From positions 1,988,001 to 2,052,000 of the forward strand of contig NZ_AKVN02000001.1 in NCBI RefSeq assembly GCF_000271485.2: 64,000 nt of DNA, in the 5' to 3' direction. The notes under the pieces were generated by a model. The model saw nothing but the letters and a program-made list of their open reading frames with translations. It did no database searches and was not told where the DNA came from. Of this stretch, positions 55,496 through 59,908 are shown piece by piece. The DNA is from Pelosinus fermentans DSM 17108. GTDB lineage: Bacteria; Bacillota; Negativicutes; DSM-13327. A program made the position numbers and the translations under genes. Position 1 is the stretch's first letter. The number at the start of each line of letters is the position of its first letter.

Positions 55496-55569
55496 GTAAT
55501 TTTAAAAAGAACTACATATATTAGCACATTATTTAGATGCAACGGCAGATTCATGTTAGCCTTAGGTGT

Positions 55570-55631
55570 AATAACTTCTTAATAAACACAATGTATAGAT
55601 CGATGTACAATGTGCTTATTAAGAAGTTATT
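55570..55631 (+). terminator. Long inverted repeat after aroD
   Basis: Arms of 26 bases (55570-55595 and 55606-55631) match at 24 positions around a 10-base loop. The end of the right arm is T-rich. It is probably the aroD terminator, although it is longer than needed. Confidence 0.7.
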
Positions 55632-55786
55632 TTATTTATGTAATTTGAAATAAAGTAGCTATCTTTCAAACAAAAATTATTGTACATCTATAATTTTACA
55701 AAAGTATATTCCGATAGGACGTTTGTTTTTTAAAATGATAAAATAATAACAAATTATTAATGTTATCATTGCTTTTTGATAGATGC

Positions 55787-55814
55787 TTGACAATTGTTGT
55801 TTAGTTGGTATAAT
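55787..55814 (+). promoter_or_regulatory. Sigma-A promoter of the aroK leader
   Basis: Consensus TTGACA (55787-55792), 16 bases, consensus TATAAT (55809-55814). Transcription should start near 55821, 28 bases before the leader ATG. Confidence 0.88.
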
Positions 55815-55848: not shown

Positions 55849-55986
55849 ATGATTACATTCTTAACTAAGAGATTTGGAAACCAATATTTTAGTTTTTTTA
55901 GTTGGGGCTATTTTTATAGTGCTGGCTATTTTGGGATGTATCAAATGAATAGACTGTTAAATGAGAGCTTAAACACGAGCAGGTAA
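55849..55986 (+). CDS. Aromatic-rich leader peptide upstream of aroK
   Basis: A 45-residue peptide with 13 aromatic residues (7 Phe, 5 Tyr, 1 Trp), most in QYFSFFSWGYFYSAGYFG. CGGAGG lies 8 bases before ATG 55849, and a consensus promoter 35 bases before. An intrinsic terminator begins 24 bases after the stop, and aroK lies 262 bases beyond it. A promoter, an aromatic-rich reading frame and a terminator before an aromatic biosynthesis gene is the architecture of ribosome-mediated attenuation. It is related to the peptide at 59240-59401. It could instead be a small structural protein. Confidence 0.75.
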   Translation: MITFLTKRFGNQYFSFFSWGYFYSAGYFGMYQMNRLLNESLNTSR

Positions 55987-56009
55987 GTATAAAACTGTTT
56001 TGTGATAGA

Positions 56010-56038
56010 AATAAGACTCGTTAGAGTCTTATTTTTTG
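56010..56038 (+). terminator. Terminator / attenuator between leader peptide and aroK
   Basis: A stem AATAAGACTC / GAGTCTTATT (loop GTTA-like) followed by TTTTT. The core AAGACTC / GAGTCTT is the same as in the leader terminator upstream of aroF. Confidence 0.88.
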
Positions 56039-56181
56039 TTTTATGGTATTAGGAGTTATAAAGGCTGTAAGTGAAAAAACATAAGTCATTATGAAGCACA
56101 AAGATAACAATGCTGCTTCCGCGGCATACAAAGGAGAATATTAAAGATAAATAGAATCCTTTCTTGTCCTATATTTTTTGA

Positions 56182-56252
56182 TTTGTCATTGCGAGTATGC
56201 ATTGCAATCTTTTGTTTGTTAAGAGATTGCTTACTCTGTTTGCAATGACAAA
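56182..56252. repeat. REP-like palindromic repeat
   Basis: Outer arms TTTGTCATTGC (56182-56192) and GCAATGACAAA (56242-56252), inner arms GCAATCT (56204-56210) and AGATTGC (56224-56230). This GTCATTGC...GCAATCT...AGATTGC...GCAATGAC pattern recurs in many bacterial genomes as a dispersed palindrome. It lies in the aroK leader, 48 bases before the start codon. Confidence 0.75.
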
Positions 56253-56300
56253 AGGACGAGAAACGTTTTTCTGATAAAAAATAGTAGGCGGTGTATTGTA

Positions 56301-56834
56301 ATGAAATTTCATAATAATGTTGTGTTGATTGGTATGCCGGGTAGTGGTAAGACGTCTCTGGGTTCGATTATTGCAGAACGATTAGAGATTGATTTTTATG
56401 ATATTGACCAGTATATACAGGAAAAAGAGAATAAGACTATTTCTGAGCTTTTTTTATTAGGAGAGTCACACTTTCGTCAGATTGAAAGCAATGCTGTTCG
56501 TGAAGTTAGCAGCAAGAAACCGATTGTTATTGCTACTGGAGGAGGTGTAGTGACTCGTCCTGAGAATATAGCTGTATTACAGCAAAAAGGCACTATCTTT
56601 TATATTGACCGACCAATCGAAATGATAATAGAAACGATTGACGCTGCAGCTCGTCCGTTGCTGGAAGATAATGTGAAGAGAATTTACAGCTTATACGAAC
56701 AGAGAAAGCATTTATATGAGGGGTGTTGTCATTATCGAATTACCAACGGTTTGTCATTACATTCTGCAGTAGACCAGATTCTACAAGTAATTGCAAAAAG
56801 CCAGGATAGTGAGCAAATAGCCATTTCTGACTAA
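56301..56834 (+). CDS. aroK: Shikimate kinase
   Basis: Phosphorylates shikimate to shikimate 3-phosphate. It has 177 residues with Walker A GMPGSGKTS (about 12-20), the shikimate-binding DIDQYI and FRQIESNAVREV region, and GGGVVTRPEN. The ribosome site is weak (GGCGGTG), which together with the long leader suggests regulated expression. The leader peptide and attenuator-like terminator upstream (55849-56038) probably control it. It converges with aroC, and a terminator lies between them. Confidence 0.95.
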   Translation: MKFHNNVVLIGMPGSGKTSLGSIIAERLEIDFYDIDQYIQEKENKTISELFLLGESHFRQIESNAVREVSSKKPIVIATGGGVVTRPENIAVLQQKGTIFYIDRPIEMIIETIDAAARPLLEDNVKRIYSLYEQRKHLYEGCCHYRITNGLSLHSAVDQILQVIAKSQDSEQIAISD

Positions 56835-56961: not shown

Positions 56962-58029
56962 CTATAATACATCCCAAATAGCCATTGCAGCTGCGGCTTC
57001 GATAACAGGTACCGCACGATGGACAATACAAGGATCGTGACGACCTTCCACTGTAATAGAGACATTTTCACCCTTTGCATTCACAGTGTTCTGCTCTAAA
57101 GAAATGGAGGGGGTTGGTTTTATGGCTACACGAAAAATAAGAGGCATGCCATTGGAGATTCCTCCTAAGATTCCTCCATTGTGATTAGTGGAGGTTACAA
57201 CCAGATTGTCTTTACTATACATCGCATCATTGGCCTGGCTGCCGCGCATCTGGGCAAAAGTAAACCCGGCACCGAATTCCACACCTTTAACGGCAGGAAT
57301 AGAAAATAACAGATGTGCCAATGTGCTTTCTAGGGAATCAAAGAAAGGATCACCCAGACCGACAGGCAGGTGTATGACAGCTGCTTCAATAATACCGCCG
57401 ACAGAATCTCCCGCAGTCTTGGCTGAGAGAATGCATCGTTGCATTGATTCGCCCGCAGCAGGGTCAAGTACAGGGAATGATTTTGCTTTTAATTGTTCTA
57501 GTATTGTCTGGTCAATCGTAACCGCATCAAATTGAGATTCTGAAATAGAAGCGATACGCTGGATATGAGAGCCAATATGAATATTTTGTTGTCTCAAAAG
57601 CTGCTTAGCAATTGCACCGGCGAATACGAGAGGGGCTGTAAGGCGGCCGGAGAAGTGCCCACCGCCTCGCAAGTCATTAAAGTGCTTATACTTTATAGAG
57701 CCAGTATAATCCGCATGTCCAGGACGAAATTTCCAAGCTAAGGATTCATAATCAGCAGACCTTTGATCTTTATTTTCAATAATGGAACAAAGTGGGCTTC
57801 CTGTTGTTTTACCATTTAAAAAGCCACTCCAAATCGTAAATGCGTCTTTTTCATTACGTGCTGTTGATAAGGGACTTTTTCCAGGGGCGCGACGCTCTAG
57901 CTCCCGGGTTACTTCTGCTAAGTCAATTTCGAAACCGGGCGGTAGTCCGTCAATGGTAATACCGATCCCCTTTCCGTGACTTTCACCAAAAATAGTATAC
58001 TGGACCTTTTTACCCCATGAGCCACTCAT
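56962..58029 (-). CDS. aroC: Chorismate synthase
   Basis: The last shikimate-pathway step, EPSP to chorismate, using reduced FMN. It has 355 residues. Family signatures are FGESHGKGIGITIDGLPPG (near residue 14), RPGHADYTGSIKY and SGRLTAPLVFAGAIAK, and near the C-terminus GRHDPCIVHRAVPV. AGGAGG lies 6-7 bases before the ATG on the minus strand. It is 24 bases downstream of aroF, so the two form one operon under the leader at 59186-59475. Confidence 0.97.
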   Translation of the reverse strand: MSGSWGKKVQYTIFGESHGKGIGITIDGLPPGFEIDLAEVTRELERRAPGKSPLSTARNEKDAFTIWSGFLNGKTTGSPLCSIIENKDQRSADYESLAWKFRPGHADYTGSIKYKHFNDLRGGGHFSGRLTAPLVFAGAIAKQLLRQQNIHIGSHIQRIASISESQFDAVTIDQTILEQLKAKSFPVLDPAAGESMQRCILSAKTAGDSVGGIIEAAVIHLPVGLGDPFFDSLESTLAHLLFSIPAVKGVEFGAGFTFAQMRGSQANDAMYSKDNLVVTSTNHNGGILGGISNGMPLIFRVAIKPTPSISLEQNTVNAKGENVSITVEGRHDPCIVHRAVPVIEAAAAMAIWDVL

Positions 58030-58053: not shown

Positions 58054-59067
58054 TTAGATAGTGCGATTTTCAATTTTAGCAATCTGCGTTAAGAACCCCA
58101 TTAATGAGGCGAAACGTTCAGGTGTAATAGATTGTGGTCCATCGCAGCTTGCATTAGCAGGATCATTGTGTACTTCAATAATCAATCCATCAGCACCGAC
58201 GGCAATGGATGCCTTTGAAAGGGCCTCTACCATCCACCATTTTCCCGCAGCATGACTAGGATCAATAATAACAGGAAGATGGCTTAATTTCTTTATGGCG
58301 AGTACGGCACTTAAGTCTAGAGTATTACGGGTATAGGTTTCAAAAGTGCGAATGCCTCTTTCGCATAAAATAACATTGTCGTTACCTTCAGCCATAATAT
58401 ACTCTGCTGACATAAGTAATTCTTCAATGGTAGCACATAATCCTCGTTTTAATAAAATTGGTTTATTAGTTTGTCCTACCGCTTTCAACAGGTCAAAGTT
58501 TTGCATATTTCTTGCACCAATTTGAATAATGTCAACATCTTCAACGAATTTATCCAGTTTGCTTACGGACATAATCTCAGAGACAATTGGCAGCCCTGTT
58601 TCTGCTCTGGCAATTTTCAATAATTCCAGTCCTTCTTCCTTTAAGCCTTGGAAACTATAAGGTGATGTTCTTGGTTTGTAAGCTCCGCCACGCAAGAAGC
58701 CAGCGCCTGCTGCTTTGACTTGATTCGCTACAGACAAAATTTGACTCTCGCTTTCAACTGAGCAAGGACCAGCAATAATTGTTAATTTATTACCGCCGAT
58801 GGTTTGATTTCCAATTGGAATGACTGTATCTTCTGGATGAAAGACTCGATTGGCCTTCTTATAAGGTTCCTGTACGGATAATACTTTTTCTACATAGTTT
58901 TTACTTGCCAGCTTATCTTTATCAAGTTTATGAGTGCTGCCAACTACGCCGATAATCGTCTGAAATTCTCCATACGTAGGCCAAGCACTGCAGCCGCCTT
59001 TTTCTAATTCTGCCTTTAACTCTTCAATTTGCTCTGTTGTTACAGAAGGATGTAATACGATAACCAT
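58054..59067 (-). CDS. aroF: 3-deoxy-7-phosphoheptulonate (DAHP) synthase with N-terminal ferredoxin-like domain
   Basis: The first committed step of aromatic synthesis, PEP plus erythrose 4-phosphate. It has 337 residues, the type I-beta form found in Thermotoga and Firmicutes. An N-terminal ferredoxin-like regulatory domain (about 1-70, IGVVGSTHKLD) probably senses aromatic end products. The catalytic barrel carries IIAGPCSVES, GGAYKPRTSPYSFQG, QIGARNMQN and PVIIDPSHAAGK. The start follows AGGGGG on the minus strand. It is the first gene after the aromatic-rich leader peptide and its terminator. Confidence 0.95.
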   Translation of the reverse strand: MVIVLHPSVTTEQIEELKAELEKGGCSAWPTYGEFQTIIGVVGSTHKLDKDKLASKNYVEKVLSVQEPYKKANRVFHPEDTVIPIGNQTIGGNKLTIIAGPCSVESESQILSVANQVKAAGAGFLRGGAYKPRTSPYSFQGLKEEGLELLKIARAETGLPIVSEIMSVSKLDKFVEDVDIIQIGARNMQNFDLLKAVGQTNKPILLKRGLCATIEELLMSAEYIMAEGNDNVILCERGIRTFETYTRNTLDLSAVLAIKKLSHLPVIIDPSHAAGKWWMVEALSKASIAVGADGLIIEVHNDPANASCDGPQSITPERFASLMGFLTQIAKIENRTI

Positions 59068-59185: not shown

Positions 59186-59213
59186 TAAAAAAAATAAGAC
59201 TCAAATGAGTCTT
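59186..59213 (-). terminator. Terminator / attenuator between leader peptide and aroF
   Basis: On the minus strand AAGACTC (loop ATTT) GAGTCTT is followed by ATTTTTTTT. It starts 27 bases after the leader stop codon and lies about 120 bases before aroF. Confidence 0.88.
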
Positions 59214-59239
59214 GTAGAGATGGTGGAAATAAATTGTCC

Positions 59240-59401
59240 TTAGCGGATTGCTGCTAGTTGACATTTCCATCTATAATGCTCATTGAAAAACCATATATTC
59301 ACTTTTTCCCATCCGAAAAAGTCGAAGCTAAAAAAGTAGCTCCAACCAAAAAAGTAAAAATATTGTTTTTGTTCAATAGCTTTATAGGTTAGATGTGTCA
59401 T
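59240..59401 (-). CDS. Aromatic-rich leader peptide upstream of aroF-aroC
   Basis: A 53-residue peptide with 19 aromatic residues (10 Phe, 5 Tyr, 4 Trp), densest in QYFYFFGWSYFFSFDFFGW. I chose the ATG at 59401, 9 bases after GGAGG; the ATG at 59410 abuts that site. A consensus promoter lies upstream and an intrinsic terminator begins 27 bases after the stop, before aroF. This fits a leader peptide whose slow translation under Phe/Tyr/Trp shortage would prevent termination. A hairpin (59262-59271 with 59218-59230) brackets its stop codon. A small independent protein is the alternative. Confidence 0.78.
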   Translation of the reverse strand: MTHLTYKAIEQKQYFYFFGWSYFFSFDFFGWEKVNIWFFNEHYRWKCQLAAIR

Positions 59402-59447
59402 AAAAAACATCCTCCGATAATACTTGATTTTCCAGTAACTGTTTTCC

Positions 59448-59475
59448 ATTATATCAAAGTATTGAAAAGTGTCAA
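59448..59475 (-). promoter_or_regulatory. Sigma-A promoter of the aroF leader
   Basis: On the minus strand TTGACA (59475-59470), 16 bases, TATAAT (59453-59448), both consensus. The transcript would start near 59441. Confidence 0.88.
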
Positions 59476-59614: not shown

Positions 59615-59908
59615 GAATGTGTAATCCGCTATGAGCAGGAGAAGTACATATACGAACTTTGGATCAGCGAGTCGGTGACCAGGCAACTGGAGGTGTGATG
59701 ACCGACCCAAAGAGTCTATGGAATGGGCCTGTGAGCTGCTCACTGAACGCAATACGTCAGTAGGATGAGTCGGTTGCCCCCGTTATTGGGCTAGGGTATC
59801 AGATGTAATATCTCGTACCTGAGTAGAGGGAAAGCATTAGCTTTCTAAATTAGGGTGGTATCGCGAATCATTTCGCCCCTTTCAGGGGTGGAGTGATTTT
59901 TTTTATTT
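59615..59908 (+). promoter_or_regulatory. Tryptophan T-box riboswitch with terminator
   Basis: A transcribed leader of about 290 bases before trpD. GAGCAG (59633) and CTGCTC (near 59736) close stem I; ACTTTGG with CCAAAG, and GTCGGT with ACCGAC, form its upper parts. Between them on the 3' side lie two TGG triplets (59719-59721 and 59724-59726), either of which could be the Trp specifier. The T-box core AGGGTGGTATCGCG is at 59852-59865 and the terminator stem with a run of Ts at about 59867-59908. Uncharged tRNA-Trp should bind and favour trp transcription. Confidence 0.9.

Follow-up and report, generated by a model that had tools for sequence, protein, structure and literature searches.

The trpL, pheL, and hisL leaders of enterobacteria are the classical amino-acid attenuators. 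In Bacillota, the control of aromatic amino-acid genes is usually told as a matter of T-boxes and TRAP, of which the T-box reads tRNA directly, without translation. Low-GC Gram-positive bacteria were reportedly surveyed by Panina and others in 2003. The uORFC-13-1 motif upstream of aroF in Acholeplasma is described as a predicted uORF, in which a U run corresponds to Phe, lying between a promoter and a terminator (PMC8632094), and the DAHP synthase gene aroF of Corynebacterium glutamicum is preceded by a predicted leader peptide with Phe-Tyr-Phe (PMC4046766). A Leu-rich leader peptide attenuator belongs to ilv in S. aureus (PMC5794164), and His leader-peptide attenuators occur in other Firmicutes (PMC2965389, PMC9413887). 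For actinobacteria, the accessible text of one survey gives Phe and Tyr operons without a conserved RNA element upstream (PMC1262725).

We analysed a stretch of 64,000 nucleotides from Pelosinus fermentans DSM 17108 (the window), in which a leader peptide frame rich in aromatic codons precedes aroF-aroC and a homologous one precedes aroK. The parts of these leaders, their homologues, the pairing tests, and a model of ribosome position make ribosome-mediated attenuation, as the earlier note had proposed, the best-supported reading; from sequence and modelling, we assign a probability of about 0.86 to a ribosome-mediated transcription attenuator of four strands at aroF-aroC and aroK. Most likely, it senses Phe and Tyr, plus Trp where codons for it exist, at the entry of the shikimate pathway. 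Like trpL, pheL, and hisL, these leaders combine a short frame rich in end-product codons with 1:2, antiterminator, and terminator strands, and the terminator lies before the first structural gene. Unlike them, the family frame carries codons for three amino acids and, with 53 and 45 codons here, is longer; region 2 sits inside it and occurs in two reading frames across the family; a coding hairpin is strongly conserved; and the family serves the common pathway, in Bacillota. Compared by description, uORFC-13-1 resembles the window leader in its predicted uORF with Phe codons and in the promoter and terminator before aroF, but it is given for Acholeplasma and environmental DNA only, with at least one Phe codon and with no antiterminator described in the accessible text (PMC8632094). 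The C. glutamicum aroF leader, likewise compared by description, is a predicted leader peptide with aromatic residues before a DAHP synthase, but from an actinobacterium and with Phe-Tyr-Phe as the aromatic stretch named in the accessible text (PMC4046766). The Leu and His leaders of Firmicutes share ribosome-mediated attenuation, proposed or supported, within Bacillota, whereas, in the accessible texts, they concern other amino acids and genes and limited groups (PMC5794164, PMC2965389, PMC9413887). Searches of the open-access literature gave no report of such an aromatic leader in Negativicutes or Clostridia, and an earlier mention elsewhere is possible. As far as Rfam and the literature searched show, the RNA family is new, while the attenuation mechanism itself is of a known kind.

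The aroF leader is encoded on the minus strand. Its promoter (59448–59475) matches TTGACA-16-TATAAT at 12/12 positions, with TTGACA at 59475–59470, a 16-nt spacer, and TATAAT at 59453–59448. By sequence, a Shine-Dalgarno site GGAGG (59411–59415) stands before an ORF of 53 codons (59240–59401; ATG at 59401, stop codon at 59242–59240), for which homologues were found and in which 19 of the 53 codons are aromatic (10 Phe, 5 Tyr, and 4 Trp). Then come aroF for DAHP synthase (58054–59067, minus; PF00793 and PF18152) and aroC for chorismate synthase (56962–58029, minus; PF01264). The promoter, the GGAGG site, the frame with its 19 Phe, Tyr, and Trp codons, and aroF-aroC were all found where the earlier note had placed them. 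The terminator that it had described after the stop codon is also present (59186–59213, minus), with the stem AAGACTC-ATTT-GAGTCTT at 59213–59196 and then the U tract ATTTTTTTTA, at a distance of 26 nt from the stop codon to the stem instead of the 27 given. Only two promoters with 12/12 matches occurred in the 10 kb scanned, one before the aroF leader and one before the second leader, and on the minus strand the interval from the terminator to aroF contained no promoter-like site (at least 9/12) in the scan. The fold energy of the aroF leader RNA lies 5.3 standard deviations under that of dinucleotide shuffles. Because of this fold and because the frame, the terminator, and their position recur in relatives, the aroF leader is not a product of chance; at E ≤ 1e-3, its peptide has matches in 95 of the 380 genomes searched in the class Negativicutes.

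A second leader before aroK is absent from the earlier note. It lies on the plus strand, about 3 kb from the aroF leader, and its peptide shares 45% identity with the aroF leader peptide. A promoter TTGACA-16-TATAAT (55787–55814; 12/12) precedes a homologous ORF of 45 codons (55849–55986) with 7 Phe, 5 Tyr, and 1 Trp codons, which includes an apical coding hairpin found by folding (55899–55928) and region 2, AAUGAGAGCUU (55960–55970), with the pairing partner AAGACUCGUU. The terminator, located by scan and fold, spans 56007–56038, and aroK for shikimate kinase, assigned by a domain match, spans 56301–56834. Whole-genome searches with the peptide pair and with an RNA model returned no leader beyond these two, all other matches having E-values of 0.5 or worse. 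Two further repeats were observed on the plus strand nearby. Between the terminator of the aroK leader and aroK lies an inverted-repeat element, TCATTGCGAG...TTGCAATGAC (56180–56260), which by eye resembles a small dispersed repeat. Downstream of aroD there is a long inverted repeat, AATAACTTCTTAATAA...TTATTAAGAAGTTATT (55568–55640), perhaps the aroD terminator as judged by eye.

Among relatives, an aroF protein match was obtained in 60/60 genomes searched, some only distant. Of the best 30 aroF matches, 28 loci were examined, and 21 of these had a leader at first look; two further leaders were found later (G038 and G057), L031 carries a short divergent aromatic frame, and no leader was seen at four loci of family f10 (L017–L020). 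At E ≤ 0.1, a leader peptide search over 380 genomes of the class matched 134, including 78 among the 234 clean genomes; 95 remained at E ≤ 1e-3, and the RNA model matched 63 of 150 genomes within the class. Class matches with E above about 0.002, many of them in f11, were left out of the counts, except for two G117 matches (E 0.007) that were kept as flanking a strong one. The next frame was a DAHP synthase at 91 of the 106 leader places. The others were aroA (3), aroK (3, two of them assigned by likeness to the window aroK), tyrA (2), aroE, pheA, and an ACT-pair protein (1 each); the last four places comprised a false positive, a duplicate beside an apparent aroF remnant, a contig end, and one short frame. 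The L133 match, judged a false positive, and the third L098 match, a duplicate, were dropped, leaving the 104 leaders counted below.

In the family, a terminator follows the stop codon in 103 of the 104 leaders, at a median distance of 34 nt, and 88/102 leaders have a promoter scoring at least 10/12 no farther than 120 nt from their start, against 1–9 in five shuffles. The start codon is ATG in 96/103 leaders; an SD-like 4-mer was found in 70/103 and was missing from 33/103. The peptides are mostly 30–58 residues long, with aromatic codons averaging 26% across the family (613 Phe, 495 Tyr, and 139 Trp; n = 1247). The proposal of the earlier note that all three aromatic amino acids are sensed is fair for the window leader, in which Phe, Tyr, and Trp codons are all present, but Trp is minor across the family and its codons are absent from 12/103 leaders. 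A few loci bear several leaders. L098 (G117:C1:1818500-1825100) has three tandem leaders, two of them with an identical peptide, together with two aroF-like genes and, by eye, an apparent aroF remnant, a duplication of leader and gene. In L080 (G302), aroF and aroA each have a separate leader, and in L095 (G049) an ACT-domain-pair protein is preceded by a leader some 2 kb upstream of the one for aroF.

Comparable arrangements occur beyond the class. We scanned 79 named DAHP-synthase loci (of 80, one lacking upstream sequence), mostly Clostridia by title; they are a sample among the matches listed, with few Negativicutes, and not a census. An aromatic small ORF preceded by an SD site was present at 47/79, and 39 of those had a terminator within 70 nt past the stop codon. 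Ten shuffles of these loci averaged 4.4 for the ORF and 0.0 for the ORF with terminator, the reverse complements gave 0/79 for both, and stretches downstream of aroF gave 3/77 and 0/77, respectively. A peptide search over 398 genomes of the phylum matched 16 at E ≤ 1e-3. Twelve of these lie outside the class; their next frame has a DAHP synthase match in 9, is an apparent aroB (by eye) in 1, and is neither in 2. The RNA model, built from leaders of the Negativicutes alone, matched 12/80 named loci (E ≤ 1e-3), 11 of which are not Negativicutes by title and include Clostridium magnum, C. ganghwense, and other clostridial genomes as well as a Fusobacteria MAG; ten of these 11 matches lie directly before aroF. 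It also matched 10/10 loci selected by the peptide, a selection that is not independent. Several Clostridium-like leaders retain the same antiterminator, as CUAAUGAGU/ACUCAUUAG or close to it, and the pairing is weak in L224, L227, and L221. The eleventh match is in a Clostridiales MAG (L173, 1279–1450), where a short leader ending at the conserved motif is followed, by eye, by a pheA-like gene and then aroF.

T-boxes are frequent in the genome of P. fermentans, with 22 matches at E ≤ 1e-3, of which 17 exceed the gathering score. One (RF00230, 113.6 bits) precedes trpD in the window (59622–59883, plus), with a specifier read as UGG (Trp), and lies about 150 nt from the divergent promoter of the aroF leader, so that two tRNA-charging sensors stand back to back. 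The second DAHP synthase of the same genome (L134, G000:C1:3101800-3104400) is located behind a T-box with a specifier read as UAC (Tyr). With this T-box before one gene and the leader before aroF, the two DAHP synthases would have different sensors. In the three loci of genus g11 in f10 that were tested (L017, L019, and L020), aroF itself has a T-box where other families have the leader peptide. The T-box resembles the leader family in sensing tRNA charging and in its placement upstream of aroF, at these three f10 loci, and of the second DAHP synthase of the window genome, but it differs in its direct reading of tRNA and in having no match at the leaders. The T-box covariance model did not match the leaders tested, its nearest hit being the trpD element (59622–59883, plus); the genome had no match over cut-off for TRAP (TrpBP, PF02081), the best having E 0.24 over 15 positions in an 884-aa frame; and no Rfam family matched a leader at gathering score in the window or at the loci of seven relatives, with unrelated families only below threshold. 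T-box, TRAP, and the Rfam families were ruled out as the identity of the leaders by these failed matches. The expectation in the earlier note that Firmicutes normally use T-boxes or TRAP fails for aroF here, which has a leader peptide despite the 22 genomic T-box matches, and is also countered by the comparable uORF and terminator at 39/79 named DAHP-synthase loci.

The earlier note had drawn a hairpin around the stop codon and had seen no clear antiterminator. This hairpin is real. Folded with its upstream part masked, the transcript shows it as the antiterminator's inner stem (59218–59272, minus; about 59272–59262 with 59230–59218). A candidate for the missing antiterminator, supported by sequence and modelling, has now been identified in the pairing of AAUGAG (region 2; 59284–59279, minus), inside the leader ORF at codons Asn40-Glu41, with CUCAUU (region 3; 59209–59204, minus), which covers the 3' end of the terminator 5' arm and the loop. 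In the fold of the upstream-masked RNA just before the 3' arm exists, the stop-codon hairpin lies inside the AAUGAG/CUCAUU pairing. By eye, relatives preserve the inner stem with an altered pair, GAUGC/GCAUC where the window leader has GAUGG/CCAUC. A UGAG element recurs past the aromatic cluster. Its codon phase is.UG-AG. in 31 leaders and ..U-GAG in 20, while the exact UGAG is missing from 50/103 leaders and two leaders have several copies. The reading of UGAG in two frames, a count without a chance control, argues for a constraint at the nucleotide level. The pairing takes different forms elsewhere, such as AAAUGAGU/ACUCAUUU in L039, UGAUGAGUC/GACUCAUCA in L114, AGAACCUUU/AGAGGUUCU in L054, and, with bulges, GUAAACAGAUGCC/GGCUUCUUCUUAC in part of f15.

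Leader by leader, duplex energies were too weak to decide: 22/103 leaders reach 0.05 against shuffles, and the 6-bp antiterminator of the aroF leader, taken by itself, does not outdo shuffles, of which a fraction of 0.47 are as good. We therefore added tests of own versus foreign partners and a three-state model. Across 60 leaders, region 2 pairs better with its own partner than with foreign ones, none of 5000 permutations being as good (1/5000 when the whole arm was used). The advantage persists across 17 families (29/20000), with the right direction in 13/17 and no advantage of the own pair in 4/17. A control strand from the ORF start gave 1958/5000 and 2156/20000. The control of region 2 against the terminator 3' arm had a small excess (11/5000) and was not clean.

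The conserved peptide core, S-[WQ]-G-Y / S-[AV]-G-Y, corresponds to both arms of an RNA hairpin. In the aroF leader, this apical coding hairpin (59320–59347, minus), indicated by folding and covariation, consists of GGUUGGAGCUA (59347–59337), the loop CUUUUU, and UAGCUUCGACU (59330–59320), and forms the tip of the long 1:2 hairpin. The codon-anchored alignment contained 56 of 57 rows drawn from 60 representatives; two gapped rows, one truncated representative, and one identical row were excluded. In the apical stem, 81.1% of cells are paired, compared with 26–46% (at most 45.6%) when the partner is slid. Thirty-four cells have changed on both sides, and the pairing was matched by 0/500 shuffles, while the pair count and the pair-type count were reached by 17/500 and 15/500, respectively. 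One of the twelve pairs is mostly mismatched, with G opposite G. Own arms paired better than foreign arms across the 17 families (0/20000 permutations as good; right direction in 16/17). In four representatives of f23, the helix is preserved in a register slipped by one base and with different amino acids. Since the helix is preserved while the amino acids change, what is conserved in the apical core appears to be the RNA rather than the peptide. RNAalifold on a 58-row alignment retained 8 pairs, all in the apical stem, and the lower stems of the 1:2 hairpin are visible in single folds only.

We modelled the ribosome by masking the RNA as far as 10 nt beyond the first base of the A-site codon, an assumed footprint, and computed the antiterminator pairs expected while the terminator 3' arm is still missing. 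With no ribosome, with a ribosome stalled in the aromatic cluster, and with a ribosome at the stop codon, the window leader had 2.34, 6.38, and 0.93 pairs, respectively. A stall at codons 5–37 gave about 6 pairs and later stalls gave about 1 or less; a modelled stall at Phe38-Phe39 would favour termination. The corresponding means for 102 leaders were 3.71, 6.63, and 2.93. Stalling gave more pairs than no ribosome in 90/102 leaders and more than the ribosome at the stop codon in 92/102, leaving 12 of the 102 with no rise on stalling and 10 that were not lower at the stop codon. Among 59 representatives, the stalled state exceeded the at-stop state by 3.35 pairs, versus -0.40 to 0.49 in ten leader shuffles, and the ribosome-free state by 3.12, versus 1.20 to 1.74 in shuffles; 56% of the 59 leaders switched by more than one pair both ways, compared with 20% in shuffles. 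At equilibrium, the finished transcript prefers the terminator despite the stall in 97/102 leaders (mean probability 0.91), as does the full transcript of the window leader when stalled (-30.8 vs -24.0 kcal/mol). The switch would therefore have to be kinetic, decided while RNA polymerase moves. As the equilibrium terminator probability fell below 0.5 on stalling in just 5/102 leaders, we rejected a purely thermodynamic switch as the general explanation. In L102 and L128, contrary to the model, the terminator is weak with the ribosome at the stop codon as well.

We infer leader translation, ribosome stalling, read-through, and polymerase pausing, and we propose the following mechanism. Strand 1 covers the 5' half of the leader ORF; strand 2 is the stretch past the aromatic codons that contains AAUGAG, strand 3 the terminator 5' arm and loop (..ACUCAUU), and strand 4 the terminator 3' arm. 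Without a ribosome, the frame would fold on itself as 1:2, AAUGAG would be sequestered, and the terminator 3:4 would form. When charged Phe-, Tyr-, or Trp-tRNA is short, a ribosome would stall in the aromatic cluster and open 1:2, so that the freed strand 2 could pair with strand 3 before strand 4 exists and RNA polymerase would enter aroF-aroC (or aroK). With ample amino acids, the ribosome would pass over AAUGAG to the stop codon, strand 2 would be blocked, and the terminator would form. The covarying apical hairpin would help to sequester the AAUGAG strand until the ribosome stalls and, as the tip of 1:2, may also serve as a pause hairpin by which polymerase and ribosome stay synchronised.

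Other explanations of the frame and the terminator have to be weighed against ribosome-mediated attenuation. The peptide itself could arrest the ribosome in a TnaC-like manner, with a free aromatic amino acid or a metabolite bound and the stall setting the terminator. The core FS[W/Q]GY(F/Y)FS[A/V]GYF is indeed conserved from Negativicutes to Clostridium, beyond what control codons need. However, its conserved residues are encoded by the apical stem and change with their pairing partners (W/Q/L/Y vs A/F/V/Y; the slipped register of f23), so that the RNA can explain the conservation of the peptide, and peptide length and C terminus vary widely; we regard such arrest as improbable. Codon content and ribosome position bear on another view, in which a protein- or ligand-operated attenuator (TRAP-like, a riboswitch, or a T-box) overlaps a frame by chance. 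T-boxes are common in the same genome (the 22 matches), including those before trpD and the second DAHP synthase, but no T-box or Rfam match over gathering score was found at the tested leaders and no TRAP gene over cut-off, the aromatic codons average 26%, and the modelled switching depends on where the ribosome is, all of which makes a chance overlap more improbable still.

The genomic setting speaks to the least probable of these explanations, a small functional hydrophobic protein, either a membrane peptide or toxin-like, with its own gene and terminator and unrelated to the control of aroF. An aromatic-rich product of mostly 30–58 residues with a promoter, often an SD site, and a terminator would look much like this. 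The next gene is nevertheless a DAHP synthase at 91 of the 106 places and another aromatic-pathway gene at 10 more, and a promoter of at least 10/12 was found in just 1 of the 59 terminator-to-gene gaps scanned (of 92 gaps, the 59 of at least 40 nt, with 33 shorter ones excluded). Moreover, covariation alters the protein to preserve the RNA, and UGAG is read in two frames.

Ribosome-mediated attenuation by these leaders might reach well beyond Pelosinus. We consider it reasonably probable, at a level clearly below that for the attenuator itself, that one ancient, so far unnamed attenuator family is a major regulator of the entry into the shikimate pathway across Bacillota, occurring in Negativicutes, Clostridia, and at least one Fusobacteria MAG. 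It would have spread within genomes, as a regulon of several operons, to aroA, aroE, aroK, tyrA, and pheA (and, by eye, aroB), would integrate three amino acids in one leader, and would exchange with T-boxes on the same enzyme. The picture of T-box and TRAP control is changed by a conserved leader-peptide switch on DAHP synthase in 95/380 genomes of the class and by comparable leaders at 39/79 named, mostly clostridial loci. With their differing codons and helices, the 103 leaders constitute a naturally replicated set for attenuation theory. The family is also an example of a probably translated peptide whose sequence is shaped by RNA structure, and in one genome a T-box and a leader peptide, both tRNA-charging sensors, are placed on two DAHP synthases.
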